This document shows positions 28,174 to 32,934 of a stretch of DNA of 64,000 bases, piece after piece (the stretch's first letter is position 1; each line of letters opens with the position of its first letter). The translations under genes and the position numbers were made by a program. The DNA comes from Streptomyces sp. AW19M42 (GTDB lineage: Bacteria > Actinomycetota > Actinomycetes > Streptomycetales > Streptomycetaceae), in assembly GCA_000470535.1 (NCBI GenBank), contig CBRG010000122.1:1-64000 (forward strand). Reading direction: 5' to 3'. The notes under the pieces were generated by a model. That model was not told the DNA's origin. It was given only the letters and a program-made list of their open reading frames with translations, and did not search any database.

Positions 28174-29382
28174 TCAGCGCCCTCCGGCGAACAGCAGCGG
28201 TGCACCACCGGGAGCGGAGGCCGGACGGCCGTTCGCCGCGGGGACCGCCGATAGCGGGGACGCCGGGACCGTCGAGAGCAGCCCCCGGGCCGCCAGCTCC
28301 GGAGTGACGCCCTCACCGAACCAGTACGCCTCCTCCAGATGTGGGTATCCGGAGAGCACGAAGTGCTCCACACCCAGGGCGTGGTACTCCTCGATCCGGT
28401 CCGCGACCTCGACGTGACTGCCGACCAGCGCGGTGCCCGCACCGCCCCGCACCAGACCCACGCCGGCCCACAGGTTGGGCGCGATCTCCAGCTTGTCGCG
28501 CGAGCCCCCGTGCAGCGCCAGCATCCGCTGCTGCCCGACGGACTCGCTCCGCCCCAACGCCTGCTGGGCCGCGGCGACCGTGTCGGCGTCGAGATCGCCC
28601 AGCAGCCGGTCGGCGGTCGCCCACGCCTCGCGCGACGAGTCGCGCGAGATGGTGTGCAGCCGGATCCCGAACCGGACAGTGCGGCCCTGCTCCTCGGCCA
28701 GCCCCTTGATCCAGTCGATCTTCTTCTTCACGTCCGCCGGCGGCTCGCCCCAGGTCAGATAGACATCGGCGTGCGCGGCCGCGACCGGACCGGCTGCCGC
28801 CGAGGACCCACCGAAGAAGATCTCCGGCAGCGGGTCCGGCGGCAGCGCCGTCAGCCCGCCCTCCACCTGGTAATGCTCACCGTCGAAGTCGAACGGCCGG
28901 CCGCTCCACGCACCCCGCACCACCGACAGGAACTCCGCGGTCCTCGCGTAGCGCCGGTCGTGGTCCAGATGGTCACCGAACCTCCGCTGCTCCGTGGAGT
29001 CACCGCCCGTCACGACATTCAGCAGCAGCCGCCCCCGGGTGATCCGCTGATACGTCGCGGCCATCTGCGCGGCGAGGACCGGCGAGATCACGCCCGGCCG
29101 GAACGCCACCAGGAACTTCAGCCGCTCGGTGTGCTGGGCCAGTGCCACGGTCGTGAGCCAGGCGTCCTCGCACCAGGTCCCGGTCGGCGTCAGCACGGCC
29201 TCGAACCCCAACTGCTCGGCGGCCTTGGCGATCTGCGCCAGGTACTCGATGTCGGGTGCGCGCACCCCGCTGACCGGAGTGATCCGGTCCCGCTTGATCC
29301 CGCCGTCGGTGTACGCGTGCCGGTCGACGAGCGTACGCCCGTCGCCGCCCGTGGGCAGGAACCAGTGCAGGTGGACGTTCAT
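28174..29382 (-). CDS. ssuD: Alkanesulfonate monooxygenase, FMNH2-dependent (LLM class)
   Basis: A 402-residue luciferase-like monooxygenase that releases sulfite from alkanesulfonates using reduced FMN. Typical segments are VHLHWFLPTGGDGRTL at the start, LTPTGTWCEDAWLTTVALAQ, FLVAFRPGVISPVLAAQM, RLLLNVVTGGDSTEQRRFGD and LSGYPHLEEAYWFGEGV. It overlaps ssuA by ATGA (29379-29382), so translation is coupled. The required flavin reductase (ssuE-type) is not in the window. The C-terminal 30 residues are a low-complexity Ala/Pro tail. Confidence 0.93.
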   Translation of the reverse strand: MNVHLHWFLPTGGDGRTLVDRHAYTDGGIKRDRITPVSGVRAPDIEYLAQIAKAAEQLGFEAVLTPTGTWCEDAWLTTVALAQHTERLKFLVAFRPGVISPVLAAQMAATYQRITRGRLLLNVVTGGDSTEQRRFGDHLDHDRRYARTAEFLSVVRGAWSGRPFDFDGEHYQVEGGLTALPPDPLPEIFFGGSSAAAGPVAAAHADVYLTWGEPPADVKKKIDWIKGLAEEQGRTVRFGIRLHTISRDSSREAWATADRLLGDLDADTVAAAQQALGRSESVGQQRMLALHGGSRDKLEIAPNLWAGVGLVRGGAGTALVGSHVEVADRIEEYHALGVEHFVLSGYPHLEEAYWFGEGVTPELAARGLLSTVPASPLSAVPAANGRPASAPGGAPLLFAGGR

Positions 29383-30407
29383 GAGGAGGCCTTTCCGTAC
29401 GAGCGCGGGGTTGCGGAGGACGCGGGGAGATCGCGGTTGAAGCGGGTGTCGACGAAGTCCTTGAAGACGAAGCGGCGCGGGATGAGCTTCAGATCCGCGA
29501 AGGTGTCCGCGATCTCCTGCTCGGAGGCGATCGCGGCCGGATCGATGGCGACGGGGACCCGGGTACCGGCCGTCACCTTCACCGCGTCCAGTGCGACCTC
29601 GTACGGCAGCCCGGTCTCCTTCGCCCAGACCTTCGCCCACGCGTCGGGGTGTTTGAACACCCAGCTCTGCGCCCGGTCCAGCCGGACGAGCAGATCACCG
29701 ATGGCCGCGGACTTCCCGGGCTCCTTGAGCGCCGCGGGCGAGGCGACCTGGAACGCGAGACCGTTGACGACTCCTTCACCCGTGGTCAGGACCCGCGCCC
29801 CGCCGCCGCGCAGCACCTGAGAGGTGTAGGGGTCCCAGATCGCCCAGGCGTCGACCTTGCCCCGGCTGAACGCGGCCAGCGCATCGGCCGGCTGAAGGTA
29901 CTTCAGCCTCACGTCCGACAGGCTGAGCCCCGCCTTCTTCAGCGAACTGATCAGCTGGAAGTGGGCGGAGCTGCCCTGGGCCACGGCGACAGACCTGCCC
30001 TTGAGCTGGGCCGGACTCCTCAGCGGCGAGTCCTTGGGGACCACGATCGCCTCACCGGCCGATGAGCCGTGCGTGGCACCCACCACCACGACCTTGGAAC
30101 CGGCGCCGGCGGCGAACACCGGCGGGGTGTTGCCGCCCCCGCCGATGTCCACGGCCCCGGCGTTGACCGCCTCAAGTAGTGGCGGGCCGGAGGTGAAGGT
30201 GGACCATTTGATGCGGTAGTCGAGATCGTCCAACTCGCCGGAGGCGCGCAGGATGGCTTCGTAACCGCCCTTCTGGTCACCGATGTTGAGTGTGACGCTG
30301 CCCTTGCCGTCGGTGCTGCTCGCCGTGGAGGCGGAACTCGCGCCACCGCAGGCGGTGAGCAGCAGGGCAAGGGGGAGCAGGAACGCGGGCAGGGTACGGC
30401 GATTCAT
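29379..30407 (-). CDS. ssuA: Aliphatic sulfonate ABC transporter substrate-binding lipoprotein
   Basis: A 342-residue periplasmic-type binding protein anchored as a lipoprotein (lipobox LLTACGG, Cys20). The NMT1/SsuA-like body shows NIGDQKGGYEAILRASGELD, DIGGGGNTPPVFAAGAGSKV, AVAQGSSAHFQLISSLKKAG and AWAIWDPYTSQVL. It captures sulfonates for the SsuBC importer. It sits 55 bases after ssuB and overlaps ssuD by four bases. Confidence 0.92.
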   Translation of the reverse strand: MNRRTLPAFLLPLALLLTACGGASSASTASSTDGKGSVTLNIGDQKGGYEAILRASGELDDLDYRIKWSTFTSGPPLLEAVNAGAVDIGGGGNTPPVFAAGAGSKVVVVGATHGSSAGEAIVVPKDSPLRSPAQLKGRSVAVAQGSSAHFQLISSLKKAGLSLSDVRLKYLQPADALAAFSRGKVDAWAIWDPYTSQVLRGGGARVLTTGEGVVNGLAFQVASPAALKEPGKSAAIGDLLVRLDRAQSWVFKHPDAWAKVWAKETGLPYEVALDAVKVTAGTRVPVAIDPAAIASEQEIADTFADLKLIPRRFVFKDFVDTRFNRDLPASSATPRSYGKASS

Positions 30408-30462
30408 ATCGTCTCTCTCCGGTCCGGACAGGGGAGGTTCAGAAGCTGAGGGGATCGGTGGT

Positions 30463-31242
30463 TCAGGAGGCGTCGGTGGGCGCGGGGACTGTCTCCACGC
30501 CGAGTTCCGTGAGCAGCCGGGTGCGCAGCGCGGCGAACTCCGGGGTGCCGGGGCCGCGCGGCCGGTCCAGGCCCACCGATGTCTCGTACGCGATGGCACC
30601 GTCCCGCATGACCAGTGCGCGGTCGGCGAGGAGGAGCGCCTCGTCCACGTCGTGCGTGACGAGCAGTACGGCGCAACCCCGGCGCTGCCAGAGTTCGGCC
30701 ACCAACTGCTGGGCCTTGATCCTGGTCAGCGCGTCGAGTGCGCCGAACGGTTCGTCGAGCAGCAGCAGATCGGGCTCGCGCACCAGCGCCCGCGCGAGCG
30801 ATGCGCGCTGCGCCTCACCGCCCGAGAGGGTCCTGGGCCAGGCCCCGGACCGCTCACTGAGCCCGACCTCTGCCAACGCCTGCTCGGCGACGGCCCGTTC
30901 GGGCTTCCCGGGCAGCCCGAGCAGTACGTTGCGCCAGACCCGCTTCCAGGGCATCAGCCGCGGCGCCTGGAACGCGACGGCCCGGCGCCGGGGCACCAGT
31001 ACCGTCCCCCGGATCTCCCGGTCGAGGCCGGCGAGCACCCGCAACAGGGTCGACTTCCCGCAGCCGCTGCGCCCGAGCAGCACGGTGAACTCCCCGGCGC
31101 GCAGGGTCAGGTCGAGCCCGGCGATGACGTCCCGGCCGTCGAAGGAACGGGACAGTCCCTCGACACGTACGGCGGCTTCCGGCAGCGTGCCGGCCGGGGC
31201 GGGGGAGTGGGCGGTCACTGGCCCGTGAAGGTCGGTCGCCAT
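30463..31242 (-). CDS. ssuB: Aliphatic sulfonate ABC transporter ATP-binding protein
   Basis: A 259-residue importer ATPase: Walker A LLGRSGCGKST (about 56-66), Q-loop AVAFQAPRLMPWKRV, signature TLSGGEAQRASLARAL, Walker B LLLLDEPFGALD and H-loop LLVTHDVDEALLLADRA. The QAPRLMPW segment is typical of SsuB/TauB. ATG 31242 lies 28 bases inside the 3' end of ssuC, and AAAGG is 12 bases upstream, so coupling to ssuC translation is likely. Confidence 0.92.
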   Translation of the reverse strand: MATDLHGPVTAHSPAPAGTLPEAAVRVEGLSRSFDGRDVIAGLDLTLRAGEFTVLLGRSGCGKSTLLRVLAGLDREIRGTVLVPRRRAVAFQAPRLMPWKRVWRNVLLGLPGKPERAVAEQALAEVGLSERSGAWPRTLSGGEAQRASLARALVREPDLLLLDEPFGALDALTRIKAQQLVAELWQRRGCAVLLVTHDVDEALLLADRALVMRDGAIAYETSVGLDRPRGPGTPEFAALRTRLLTELGVETVPAPTDAS

Positions 31243-32117
31243 TGCAGCAGCAGCCTTTCGAGAATACGGACGATGACATCGGCGGCGAGGCCGAGGAAGG
31301 CGTAGACCACCAGGCAGACGACGATGACGTCGGTACGGAAGAACTCCCGGGCTTGGTTCATCAGGAAGCCGATTCCCGCATCCGCGTTGACCGACTCGCC
31401 GAACACCAGCGCCAGCCAGGCGGTCGCCAGCGAGTAACGCAGCCCCGTCATGGCCCCGGGCAACGCCCCCGGCAGCACCACATGCCGCACCAGCCCCCAA
31501 CGGCTGAGCCCCAACGACTGACCTGCCTCGATGAGTTGGGGATCCACGCCGCGAATGCCCGCGTAGACGTTGAGGTACAGATGGAACGCCACCCCGAGCG
31601 CGATCAGCGCCACCTTGGGGGCCTCACCGATTCCCAGCCAGATGATGAACAGCGGGATCAGCCCGACCCAGGGAACCGTGCGCAGCATCTGGACGCTGGC
31701 GTCGACCAGATCCTCACCCAGCCGGGAGAGCCCGGAGACCAGCGCGAGCGCCGTCCCGACGGCGCCCCCGAGCACCAGCCCCACAGCCACGCGCTGGAGG
31801 GAGACGGCCATCGCGGAGGTGAGGGTCCCGTCCGCGATCAGATCCCATCCCGCGCGGGCGATGGTGCCGGGCGAGGCCAGCACGTCCGGATGCAGCACAC
31901 CTGTGGCGCTGAGCACCTGCCACAGGACCAGCAACAACAGGGGCCCGGCAGTGCGCCGAAGCCACCGCGGCACGTTTCGCAGCCGCACCCCGCGGGCAGC
32001 GGCCGGCGTGACGGGCTCCAGGTCGAGCGGCCGACGCCGGACCGAACCGGCCGCCTGGCTGGATTTTGCCATTTCAGCTGATATATCGGGTGGGGCGAGA
32101 GCGTGATCGAGAGTCAT
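31215..32117 (-). CDS. ssuC: Aliphatic sulfonate ABC transporter permease
   Basis: A 300-residue BPD-type importer permease with a basic N-terminus and about six membrane segments. The EAA loop that docks the ATPase is GIRGVDPQLIEAGQSLGLSR. It is the first structural gene of the operon. GGAG lies five bases before ATG 32117. The 300-base 5' region contains a leader ORF, promoter and hairpin that may set its expression by cysteine supply. Confidence 0.92.
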   Translation of the reverse strand: MTLDHALAPPDISAEMAKSSQAAGSVRRRPLDLEPVTPAAARGVRLRNVPRWLRRTAGPLLLLVLWQVLSATGVLHPDVLASPGTIARAGWDLIADGTLTSAMAVSLQRVAVGLVLGGAVGTALALVSGLSRLGEDLVDASVQMLRTVPWVGLIPLFIIWLGIGEAPKVALIALGVAFHLYLNVYAGIRGVDPQLIEAGQSLGLSRWGLVRHVVLPGALPGAMTGLRYSLATAWLALVFGESVNADAGIGFLMNQAREFFRTDVIVVCLVVYAFLGLAADVIVRILERLLLQWRPTFTGQ

Positions 32118-32276
32118 GTGGGCTCCACGAACGGTTCATGGGGATGGGGTGCCCCGGCCCCAGGGCTCCCGGGCACACGACGCCCGTGCCGTACGGGCAG
32201 AGGTCACGGAGGTACCCACCGCGAGCGTCGGTCGGGGCCGAGCGACACGGGAGGGGCGGGGCGGGACGCGTACTAC

Positions 32277-32314
32277 GTCAGGAGCGGTCGGGCGCCTCGC
32301 GCCCGGTCACTGAC
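32277..32314 (-). promoter_or_regulatory. Hairpin between the leader ORF and ssuC (candidate attenuator)
   Basis: On the minus strand GTCAGTGACC-GGGCGC-GAG-GCGCCC-GACCGCTCCTGAC folds with a perfect 6-bp GC core and a three-base loop; outer GTCAG and CTGAC pair across a small internal mismatch. It starts 22 bases after the leader stop codon and 160 bases before ssuC. No T-tract follows, so it could be a Rho-dependent or RNA-masking element. Confidence 0.5.
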
Positions 32315-32335
32315 GGGAAAGGTACTGAGAGAACG

Positions 32336-32419
32336 TCAGCAGCCGCGACAACACGCGGCGGAGGCCACCCGCAGCAGGTCGATGTGACCGCGCGAAGTGA
32401 GCAGAGCTGATCGGAACAT
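32336..32419 (-). CDS. Cysteine-rich leader peptide of the ssu operon
   Basis: A 27-codon ORF starting MFRSALLTSRGHIDLLRVA and ending SAACCRGC-stop. The RxHIDLLRVAS core is the form seen in actinobacterial putative leader peptides upstream of sulfur genes. Three cysteine codons (TGT TGT CGC GGC TGC) immediately precede the stop, so a ribosome would stall there when Cys-tRNA is short. An in-frame TGA eight codons before the ATG rules out an earlier start. No ribosome site precedes it, but the -10 hexamer ends seven bases before the ATG, so a leaderless mRNA is likely. Polycysteine uORFs of this kind are known to regulate sulfur genes in mycobacteria. Confidence 0.8.
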   Translation of the reverse strand: MFRSALLTSRGHIDLLRVASAACCRGC

Positions 32420-32426
32420 GGCGCTG

Positions 32427-32456
32427 AACGTAGCGATCCCTCAACGAAGCGGTCAA
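32427..32456 (-). promoter_or_regulatory. Promoter of the ssu leader and operon
   Basis: On the minus strand TTGACC (32456-32451), an 18-bp spacer, then TACGTT (32432-32427). Transcription should begin at or next to the ATG at 32419, giving a leaderless leader-peptide mRNA. The match to the housekeeping -35 is good; the -10 keeps the T at positions 1 and 6 only. Confidence 0.6.
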
Positions 32457-32511
32457 TGGTGTCTCGGCACGTGGACGCGCGATCGTGCGGCACGGGCGGG
32501 AGAATGAACCC

Positions 32512-32934
32512 ATGTCCACCGCCTTCACCACCAGCGTCCTGCACATCACCACAGGAACCACGGAGACCGTCACCGATCTGACATCCGACTGCGAACAGTT
32601 CCTGACCCGGACGGCCGCCGGCCGGGACGGACTGCTCAACATCTTCGTACCCCACGCGACAGCGGGGATCGCGGTTCTCGAAACCGGCGCGGGCAGCGAC
32701 GACGACCTCCTCTCCGCCCTGCACACGCTGCTCCCAGCCGACGACCGCTGGCAGCACCGCCACGGCAGTCCCGGCCACGGTCGCGACCATGTACTCCCGG
32801 CCCTCGTACCGCCGCACGCGACCCTCCCGGTGATCGCGGGTCGGCTGGAGCTGGGGACGTGGCAGTCGGTGTGCCTGGTCGACACGAACCGGGACAATCC
32901 CAACCGGCAGGTGCGGCTGAGCTTCCTGGGGTGA
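32512..32934 (+). CDS. YjbQ family protein (UPF0047, secondary thiamine-phosphate synthase-like)
   Basis: A 140-residue cytoplasmic protein. It carries NIFVPHATAGIAVLETGAGS, PADDRWQHRHG, and the histidine-rich core DHVLPALVPPHATLPVIAGR with LELGTWQSVCLVDTN. The family has weak thiamine-phosphate synthase activity in E. coli, but its real role is unclear. ATG 32512 has GGGAG about ten bases upstream; a more distal in-frame ATG at 32485 is possible. It is divergent from the ssu operon, sharing the 5' region. Confidence 0.85.
   Translation: MSTAFTTSVLHITTGTTETVTDLTSDCEQFLTRTAAGRDGLLNIFVPHATAGIAVLETGAGSDDDLLSALHTLLPADDRWQHRHGSPGHGRDHVLPALVPPHATLPVIAGRLELGTWQSVCLVDTNRDNPNRQVRLSFLG

Follow-up and report, generated by a model that had tools for sequence, protein, structure and literature searches.

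The question raised by this locus is whether a short ORF ending in cysteine codons, which lies between a promoter and the sulfonate operon ssuCBAD, is a cis-acting sensor of cysteine, and which of its parts would do the sensing. The window analyzed here is a 64,000-nucleotide stretch of DNA from Streptomyces sp. AW19M42 (contig CBRG010000122.1); an earlier note on it had proposed that ribosomes stalling on the Cys codons of this ORF open the operon.

The leader ORF, its promoter and the ssuCBAD operon

The leader ORF occupies positions 32336..32419 on the minus strand, with its ATG at 32419 and its TGA at 32338-32336. It has 27 codons plus the stop, encodes the peptide MFRSALLTSRGHIDLLRVASAACCRGC, and ends in Cys-Cys-Arg-Gly-Cys-stop (TGT TGT CGC GGC TGC TGA), just as the earlier note had read it; its assignment is based on the sequence together with a match to the NCBIfam profile NF042934. 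The conserved peptide core HIDLLRVAS corresponds to codons 12-20 (32360..32386, minus strand; H 12, D 14, L 15 and R 17), and the motif Cys, nine codons past the Asp (Asp+9), is codon 23, a TGT at 32351..32353 (minus strand) that is TGT in relatives as well and is the proposed sensing codon.

The promoter that had been described was confirmed: a -35 TTGACC (32451..32456, minus strand) is followed by an 18-nt spacer, a -10 TACGTT (32427..32432, minus strand) and 7 nt between the end of the -10 and the ATG, with no ribosome-binding site. A generic sigma-70 scanner returned no promoter match for the leader. If transcription starts where the -10 predicts, the 7-nt gap leaves no space for a Shine-Dalgarno (SD) sequence. 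For the leaderless genes of S. lividans, the section of the study cited here gives a mean distance of 6.3 nt from the -10 to the start site and a -35 of TTGACn (PMC8079986); by this comparison the ssu leader mRNA probably begins at the ATG and is thus leaderless. The promoter region is common to the leader and a divergent gene of the YjbQ family (32485-32934, plus strand; TIGR00149, 69 bits vs 67.75).

Family matches give the gene order after the leader as ssuC, ssuB, ssuA and ssuD, all on the minus strand; only SsuA exceeds its cut-off, the other matches being strong but below theirs. The sulfonate ABC permease gene ssuC spans 31215..32117 (NF008470 SsuC, 243 bits, below the equivalog cut-off of 347). 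The ATPase gene ssuB lies in an ORF of 30463..31500, with its true start inside (NF008420, 240 bits, cut-off 395), and the ORFs of ssuA (substrate-binding protein; TIGR01728, 206 bits, cut-off 163.5) and ssuD (alkanesulfonate monooxygenase; TIGR03565, 455 bits, cut-off 518) extend over 29379..30599 and 28174..29640, respectively. The start of ssuC at 32117 is 218 nt past the leader stop and is preceded by a Shine-Dalgarno GGAG (32123..32126, minus strand), TGGAG being invariant in 8 chosen sequences.

Conservation of the leader at ssuC loci

The best 80 of 119 SsuC relatives, which make up the ssuC locus set, are all Streptomyces records, the top one being 94% identical. The leader is present at 77 of these 80 loci, that is, at every one of the 77 with readable upstream sequence, the remaining three being interrupted by contig ends (L034, L079) or an assembly gap (L050). 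Conservation of the reading frame in relatives, the check that the earlier note had proposed, was found both in frame and in codon. The promoter geometry is likewise kept at all 77 loci: a -10 TANNNT ends 6-7 nt 5' of the ATG in each, and the -35, 17-18 nt 5' of the -10, is TTGACC in 76 and TTGCCC in one. These 77 leaders were collected without requiring a Cys, and the Asp+9 codon is TGT in 77/77. The weight that had been placed on several Cys codons was not borne out, as the number of Cys residues from the motif Cys onward is one in 21 leaders, two in 32, three in 21 and four in 3, and only the first, the TGT, is invariant.

The mean codon entropy of the ssu leader core is 0.32, vs 0.88 expected from conserved SsuC columns for the same amino acids; none of 20,000 resamplings reached so low a value, and since the loci are related the difference is to be taken as a contrast rather than as a calibrated probability. 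The ssu leader shows almost no synonymous change (GGT, CTC, CTG CTG, GTG and GCC are invariant wherever the residue is kept), whereas paralogous leaders vary, which makes it possible that a locus-specific RNA or DNA element overlaps the ORF. The spacer from leader to ssuC ranges from 106 to 404 nt at the 52 loci with an aligned ssuC start; the other 25 of the 77, where the match did not begin at SsuC residue 1, were excluded from the spacer-length and SD-folding analyses.

Upstream of the -35, at 32457-32481 (minus strand), GTCC and then GAGAC are strongly conserved, with one C present in 77/77. A sulfur regulator that binds DNA may use this block as its operator, which would form a second layer of control. 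A perfect palindrome, GACACCAATTGGTGTC, is located by the promoter about 40-55 nt 5' of another family leader (L009), before a family-5 binding protein gene, and half-sites related to it are seen at the ssu and cysteine dioxygenase leaders.

A named leader-peptide family preceding sulfur genes

The window peptide scores 31.5 bits against NF042934, a 'putative leader peptide' family (cis_reg_atten) with a cut-off of 27, its residues 6-23 aligning to positions 2-19 of the 19-position model (29.4 bits in the genome search). The ssu leader is therefore a member of an already named leader-peptide family and not a new class.

A search of the window's own genome gave 16 family matches at E up to 10, of which 7 pass the cut-off and 12 were kept, the four left out having E values of 1.7 to 8.6. 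Apart from ssuCBAD, the own-genome leaders precede genes assigned by Pfam to cysteine dioxygenase, sulfite reductase, a Cys/Met PLP enzyme, rhodanese and flavin reductase, and also to an SDF symporter, a family-5 binding protein and an ABC permease; eight of nine downstream proteins were identified, the ninth being a 27-residue fragment at a contig end. For L006 and L012, no downstream gene was identified within the sequence stretch examined. The leader-like frame of L006 (G000:C226) ends in Ser-Ala-Tyr-stop, without a Cys, and another frame there reads RSVDLQRVNSALC with a TGT; L006 may be a leader that has decayed beside one that is intact.

Family matches at E up to 0.005 occur in all 41 genomes of the window's genus (own genome included), with 4-14 in each. 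None of 14 control genomes has one at this threshold; when E is relaxed to 10, ten of these 14 have matches, none of them above the cut-off. Across the phylum, with E up to 0.0005, at least 11 of 149 genomes have matches, four of them in the genus; no more than 55 candidates were scored in each genome, which makes this a lower bound. In other genomes, 97 downstream proteins were found at 99 loci, and the 11 of them that were scanned, chosen for variety, comprise a sulfatase, a ThiS/CysO-like protein, an NtaA/DmoA-type monooxygenase, SsuA, SsuE, SfnG, TauD, a family-5 binding protein, an SDF-type carrier, a DUF1684 protein and one without a Pfam match. The TauD gene (L194) is 572 nt past its leader, and an intervening gene is possible. 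The downstream genes identified for family leaders are mostly sulfur genes; the link is ambiguous for the SDF-type carrier and the family-5 proteins and absent for the DUF1684 protein (L205) and the Pfam-less protein (L185), for both of which the position behind a family leader suggests a sulfur role. Within the largely open-access literature, we recognized no publication on the family in Streptomyces, on the UGU codon of its leaders or on the leader at ssu, and the novelty of all three rests on that negative result.

A single UGU codon in a conserved peptide core

The conserved leader core consists of [H/A]-[VIM]-D-L-x-R plus a single Cys at Asp+9; H-x-D-L-x-R, located 6 to 11 residues N-terminal of that Cys, is kept at the amino-acid level. 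The family was assembled as 112 leaders, 12 from the window's own genome and 100 from 38 of 40 other genomes of the genus; the latter are top-ranking matches and so are biased to good fits of a model that ends in Cys, and one of them (L206), not caught by the first pattern, was included manually. Of the 111 family leaders with a Cys at Asp+9, 109 encode it by TGT and two by TGC; the remaining one of the 112 lacks this Cys. Among the own-genome leaders the Asp+9 Cys codon is TGT in 11/11, L006 being the kept match without a Cys, and 43 of 46 distinct 13-residue motifs are all-TGT.

As background, TGT makes up 16/136 Cys codons (11.8%) in the window genes, 120/926 (13.0%) in the 80 loci, 9% in ssuC (85 codons) and 18% in a cruder set (349 codons). 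The remaining Cys codons of family leaders are TGT in 13/119 cases; in the ssu group the figure is 28/83, a mild enrichment of TGT at these codons as well. Other matches to D[LI]xRx5C in about 1.06 Mb carry TGC in 11 cases and TGT in 4; two or more of these matches are probably genuine leaders which the filter had set aside. Over the family, the motif His, Asp, Leu and Arg codons follow roughly background usage and the Cys is fixed as TGT, which indicates that the motif is conserved at the residue level and the Cys at the codon level; the Ser three codons 5' of the motif Cys leans to AGC (68/76). The synonymous variation of the other motif codons between paralogous leaders points to selection on the peptide. 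That the key Cys is almost always encoded by the rare UGU suggests that slowing of the ribosome at this codon signals cysteine shortage.

The spacer and its predicted RNA structure

A pyrimidine-rich tract (32326..32335, minus strand) directly follows the leader stop; over the 77 loci the first 10 nt are 83% pyrimidine, and position 1 is C in 72. The 218-nt spacer as a whole (32118..32335, minus strand) has C in excess of G, with a C-G value of 0.15 over its first 80 nt. The mean C-G is 0.182 for the 77 ssu spacers (100 nt) and 0.190 for the 112 family leaders vs 0.047 for 175 upstream controls, a comparison in which the controls are predicted upstream regions rather than mapped 5' UTRs and the leader loci are related by descent.

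The GC-rich hairpin to which attention had been drawn is present (32276..32315, minus strand), starting at the 21st nt past the leader stop and leaving 158 nt to ssuC, but its proposed role as a working part did not hold up: it has no U-tract and is poorly conserved. In 8 related sequences, 72.3% of cells pair vs 69.0% after shuffling, a level reached by 61 of 500 shuffles; the cells changed on both sides number 8, equaled by 32 of 500 shuffles; and although pairing exceeds that of slid versions, this is expected when a structure derives from one row. The hairpin was accordingly rejected as a conserved attenuator. No terminator-like site was found between the leader and ssuC, the leader region folds no better than its shuffles (z -0.59), and an Rfam search gave nothing credible (one miRNA match, 17.3 bits vs a threshold of 90). 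Another hairpin, GCCGCG-UGUNNN-CGCGGC with the UGU in its loop, gives the window leader, and many ssu leaders, their best local fold; it was also rejected, as it is without double changes in 8 sequences and absent as the best fold in other clades, and it may be a chance product of amino-acid constraint on GC-rich codons. The Cys-Cys pair and the post-stop hairpin do not make up the conserved core of the leader.

Proposed mechanism and alternative explanations

We propose, and hold with good confidence, that the ssu leader is a cysteine-sensing cis leader read at its UGU codon. RNA polymerase would start at the leader ATG or within a base or two, and a ribosome loading on the leaderless mRNA would synthesize the segment ..HIDLLRVASAA and then reach the one UGU that is invariant. 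With charged Cys-tRNA in good supply, the ribosome would pass the UGU, finish and depart, and the C-rich untranslated spacer would let the majority of transcripts, or of initiations, fail ahead of ssuC. Under a shortage of Cys-tRNA it would instead wait at the UGU, and expression of ssuCBAD would go up. The nascent H-x-D-L-x-R segment could aid this stall via contacts in the exit tunnel. What the data show is the ORF, the promoter geometry, the conservation of peptide and codons with an invariant UGU, the association with sulfur genes and the C-rich spacer; the leaderless start, the stalling and its cysteine dependence, the contacts in the tunnel and the step by which a stall would raise expression are what we infer. 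For that last step we tentatively favor premature, perhaps Rho-dependent, termination. A C-rich, pyrimidine-rich spacer fits Rho loading; a ribosome with the UGU in its A site is estimated to cover little past the stop, so that it would hardly mask a Rho site in any simple way, and the pyrimidine tract begins after the stop, so that Rho would be freer in starvation, not blocked.

Mycobacterial polycysteine leaders are said, in the abstract of Canestrari et al. (2020), to operate by hiding the SD sequence. One alternative for ssu is translation attenuation, in which the leader RNA would pair with the ssuC ribosome-binding site until a Cys stall frees it. The passages cited place mycobacterial cysteine genes under translation attenuation and describe SD hiding as its general mechanism (PMC13236596), and fold prediction leaves most of the ssuC SD paired. 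Across 53 sequences (the window's own and those of 52 loci), however, the pairing partners of the SD lie in the leader in 14% and are local in 70%. Duplexes between leader tail and SD score -12.84 for the same genome vs -12.55 for swapped genomes and are stronger in 45% of genomes, and random 18-mers of the spacer pair with the SD better (-9.83) than the post-stop 18 nt do (-8.69). Masking to UGU+14 moves the mean unpaired probability of the SD from 0.134 to 0.157 (+0.022), with a rise above 0.1 in 8 of 53, and a modeled stalled ribosome lowers accessibility of the window's own SD from 0.27 to 0.23. Hiding of the ssuC ribosome-binding site by the leader is thus not supported by fold prediction over these 53 sequences, and we regard this explanation as unlikely. 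A true arrest peptide, whose stall is set by a small molecule (cysteine or another sulfur metabolite) instead of an empty Cys-tRNA, would account for the preservation of the H-x-D-L-x-R residues while their codons follow background usage across the family, and also for the 21 of 77 ssu leaders with only one Cys from the motif onward; it is nonetheless improbable in our judgment, because at the Cys the codon is fixed as well as the residue (109/111 TGT), which points to decoding.

Control by a DNA-binding regulator at the promoter, with the leader playing a minor part, draws on the conserved block 5' of the -35, where AGAC at -8 to -5 is found in about 63 of the 77 ssu loci and C at -18 in all 77. 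Such a regulator would leave the conserved ORF and its UGU unexplained, and GACAYCA (either strand) occurs in 10 of 112 family leaders against 2.3 expected, so it is not common to most of them; that it dominates control has, in our view, a low probability, similar to that of the arrest peptide. A classical trp-type attenuator, built of alternative hairpins and an intrinsic terminator, could make use of the GC hairpin 3' of the leader stop, but the zero count of terminator-like sites, the poor conservation of the hairpin, the z of -0.59 and the failure to match an Rfam family make it highly improbable. No more credible is an action of the peptide in trans, or a role as a precursor peptide, with its position by sulfur genes reflecting merely co-expression: conservation at the peptide level would suit this idea, yet there are several copies per genome before different genes, a layout usual for cis control, and the UGU is fixed.

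Sensing of cysteine at the UGU, the reading that we prefer, also allows a broader but distinctly more speculative proposal. Up to about a dozen operons per Streptomyces genome may each be gated by one UGU, between them sulfite reductase, CysO, sulfatase, TauD, SfnG and SsuCBAD operons, and form a 'ribosome regulon' for sulfur in which H-x-D-L-x-R makes a slow codon a tunable stall; the mycobacterial polycysteine runs would then be an elaboration of a single-UGU sensor. If cysteine is indeed sensed at the UGU, Streptomyces has a protein-free cysteine sensor common to many sulfur operons, by which organosulfur scavenging is tied to cysteine supply. One could then test why a particular synonymous codon and the six-residue motif a short way 5' of it stay together across leaders of unrelated genes, and the leaders would offer a route to finding sulfur genes.

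Comparison with known leader systems

The NF042934 family has the same motif ending in Cys as the ssu leader; its profile output, on which this comparison is based, names no target, mechanism or codon. Against the profiles of the mycobacterial leaders Ms5788A (NF042933) and Ms4527A (NF042936), the window peptide scores 16.6 and 21.4 bits, below both cut-offs (45), and the own-genome rhodanese leader (L007) reaches 39.1 bits on Ms5788A. Outside the genus but within its class, six of seven leaders carry TGT at Asp+9. L106, which belongs to another part of the phylum, lacks a Cys, and L111, which was not parsed, was left out. The two of these seven leaders that were scanned pass the cut-off of Ms5788A or Ms4527A, so at least those two are of the mycobacterial kind.

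In S. lividans, the section cited lists eight leader peptides (leu, trp, ala, ilv, met and thr), with no cysteine one found among them; these are ORFs before amino-acid genes, most of them leaderless and several without a clear terminator, as at ssu (PMC8079986). Candidate cysteine leader peptides were proposed by Seliverstov et al. (2005) in Mycobacterium, P. acnes and B. longum (PMC1262725). From the portions of that work cited here, they resemble the ssu leader in being Cys-coding leaders, there before cys genes, without a terminator and with Rho proposed, and differ from it in having runs of Cys codons; no Streptomyces cys leader was found in those portions. Mycobacterial cysteine leaders are described, in excerpts that cite Canestrari et al. 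(2020), as cysteine-responsive and as attenuating through ribosome speed on Cys codons (PMC9031893, PMC13236596). The Streptomyces leaders share with the mycobacterial polycysteine leaderless attenuators their motif and their setting before sulfur and cysteine genes, and the kinship that the earlier note had suggested is thereby supported. The mycobacterial attenuators have a run of Cys residues, whereas ssu leaders often have one Cys and the window leader just Cys-Cys, and hiding of the ribosome-binding site is not supported at ssu by fold prediction. Our best reading of the ssu leader is that of a probably leaderless, single-UGU cysteine sensor related to the mycobacterial polycysteine attenuators.
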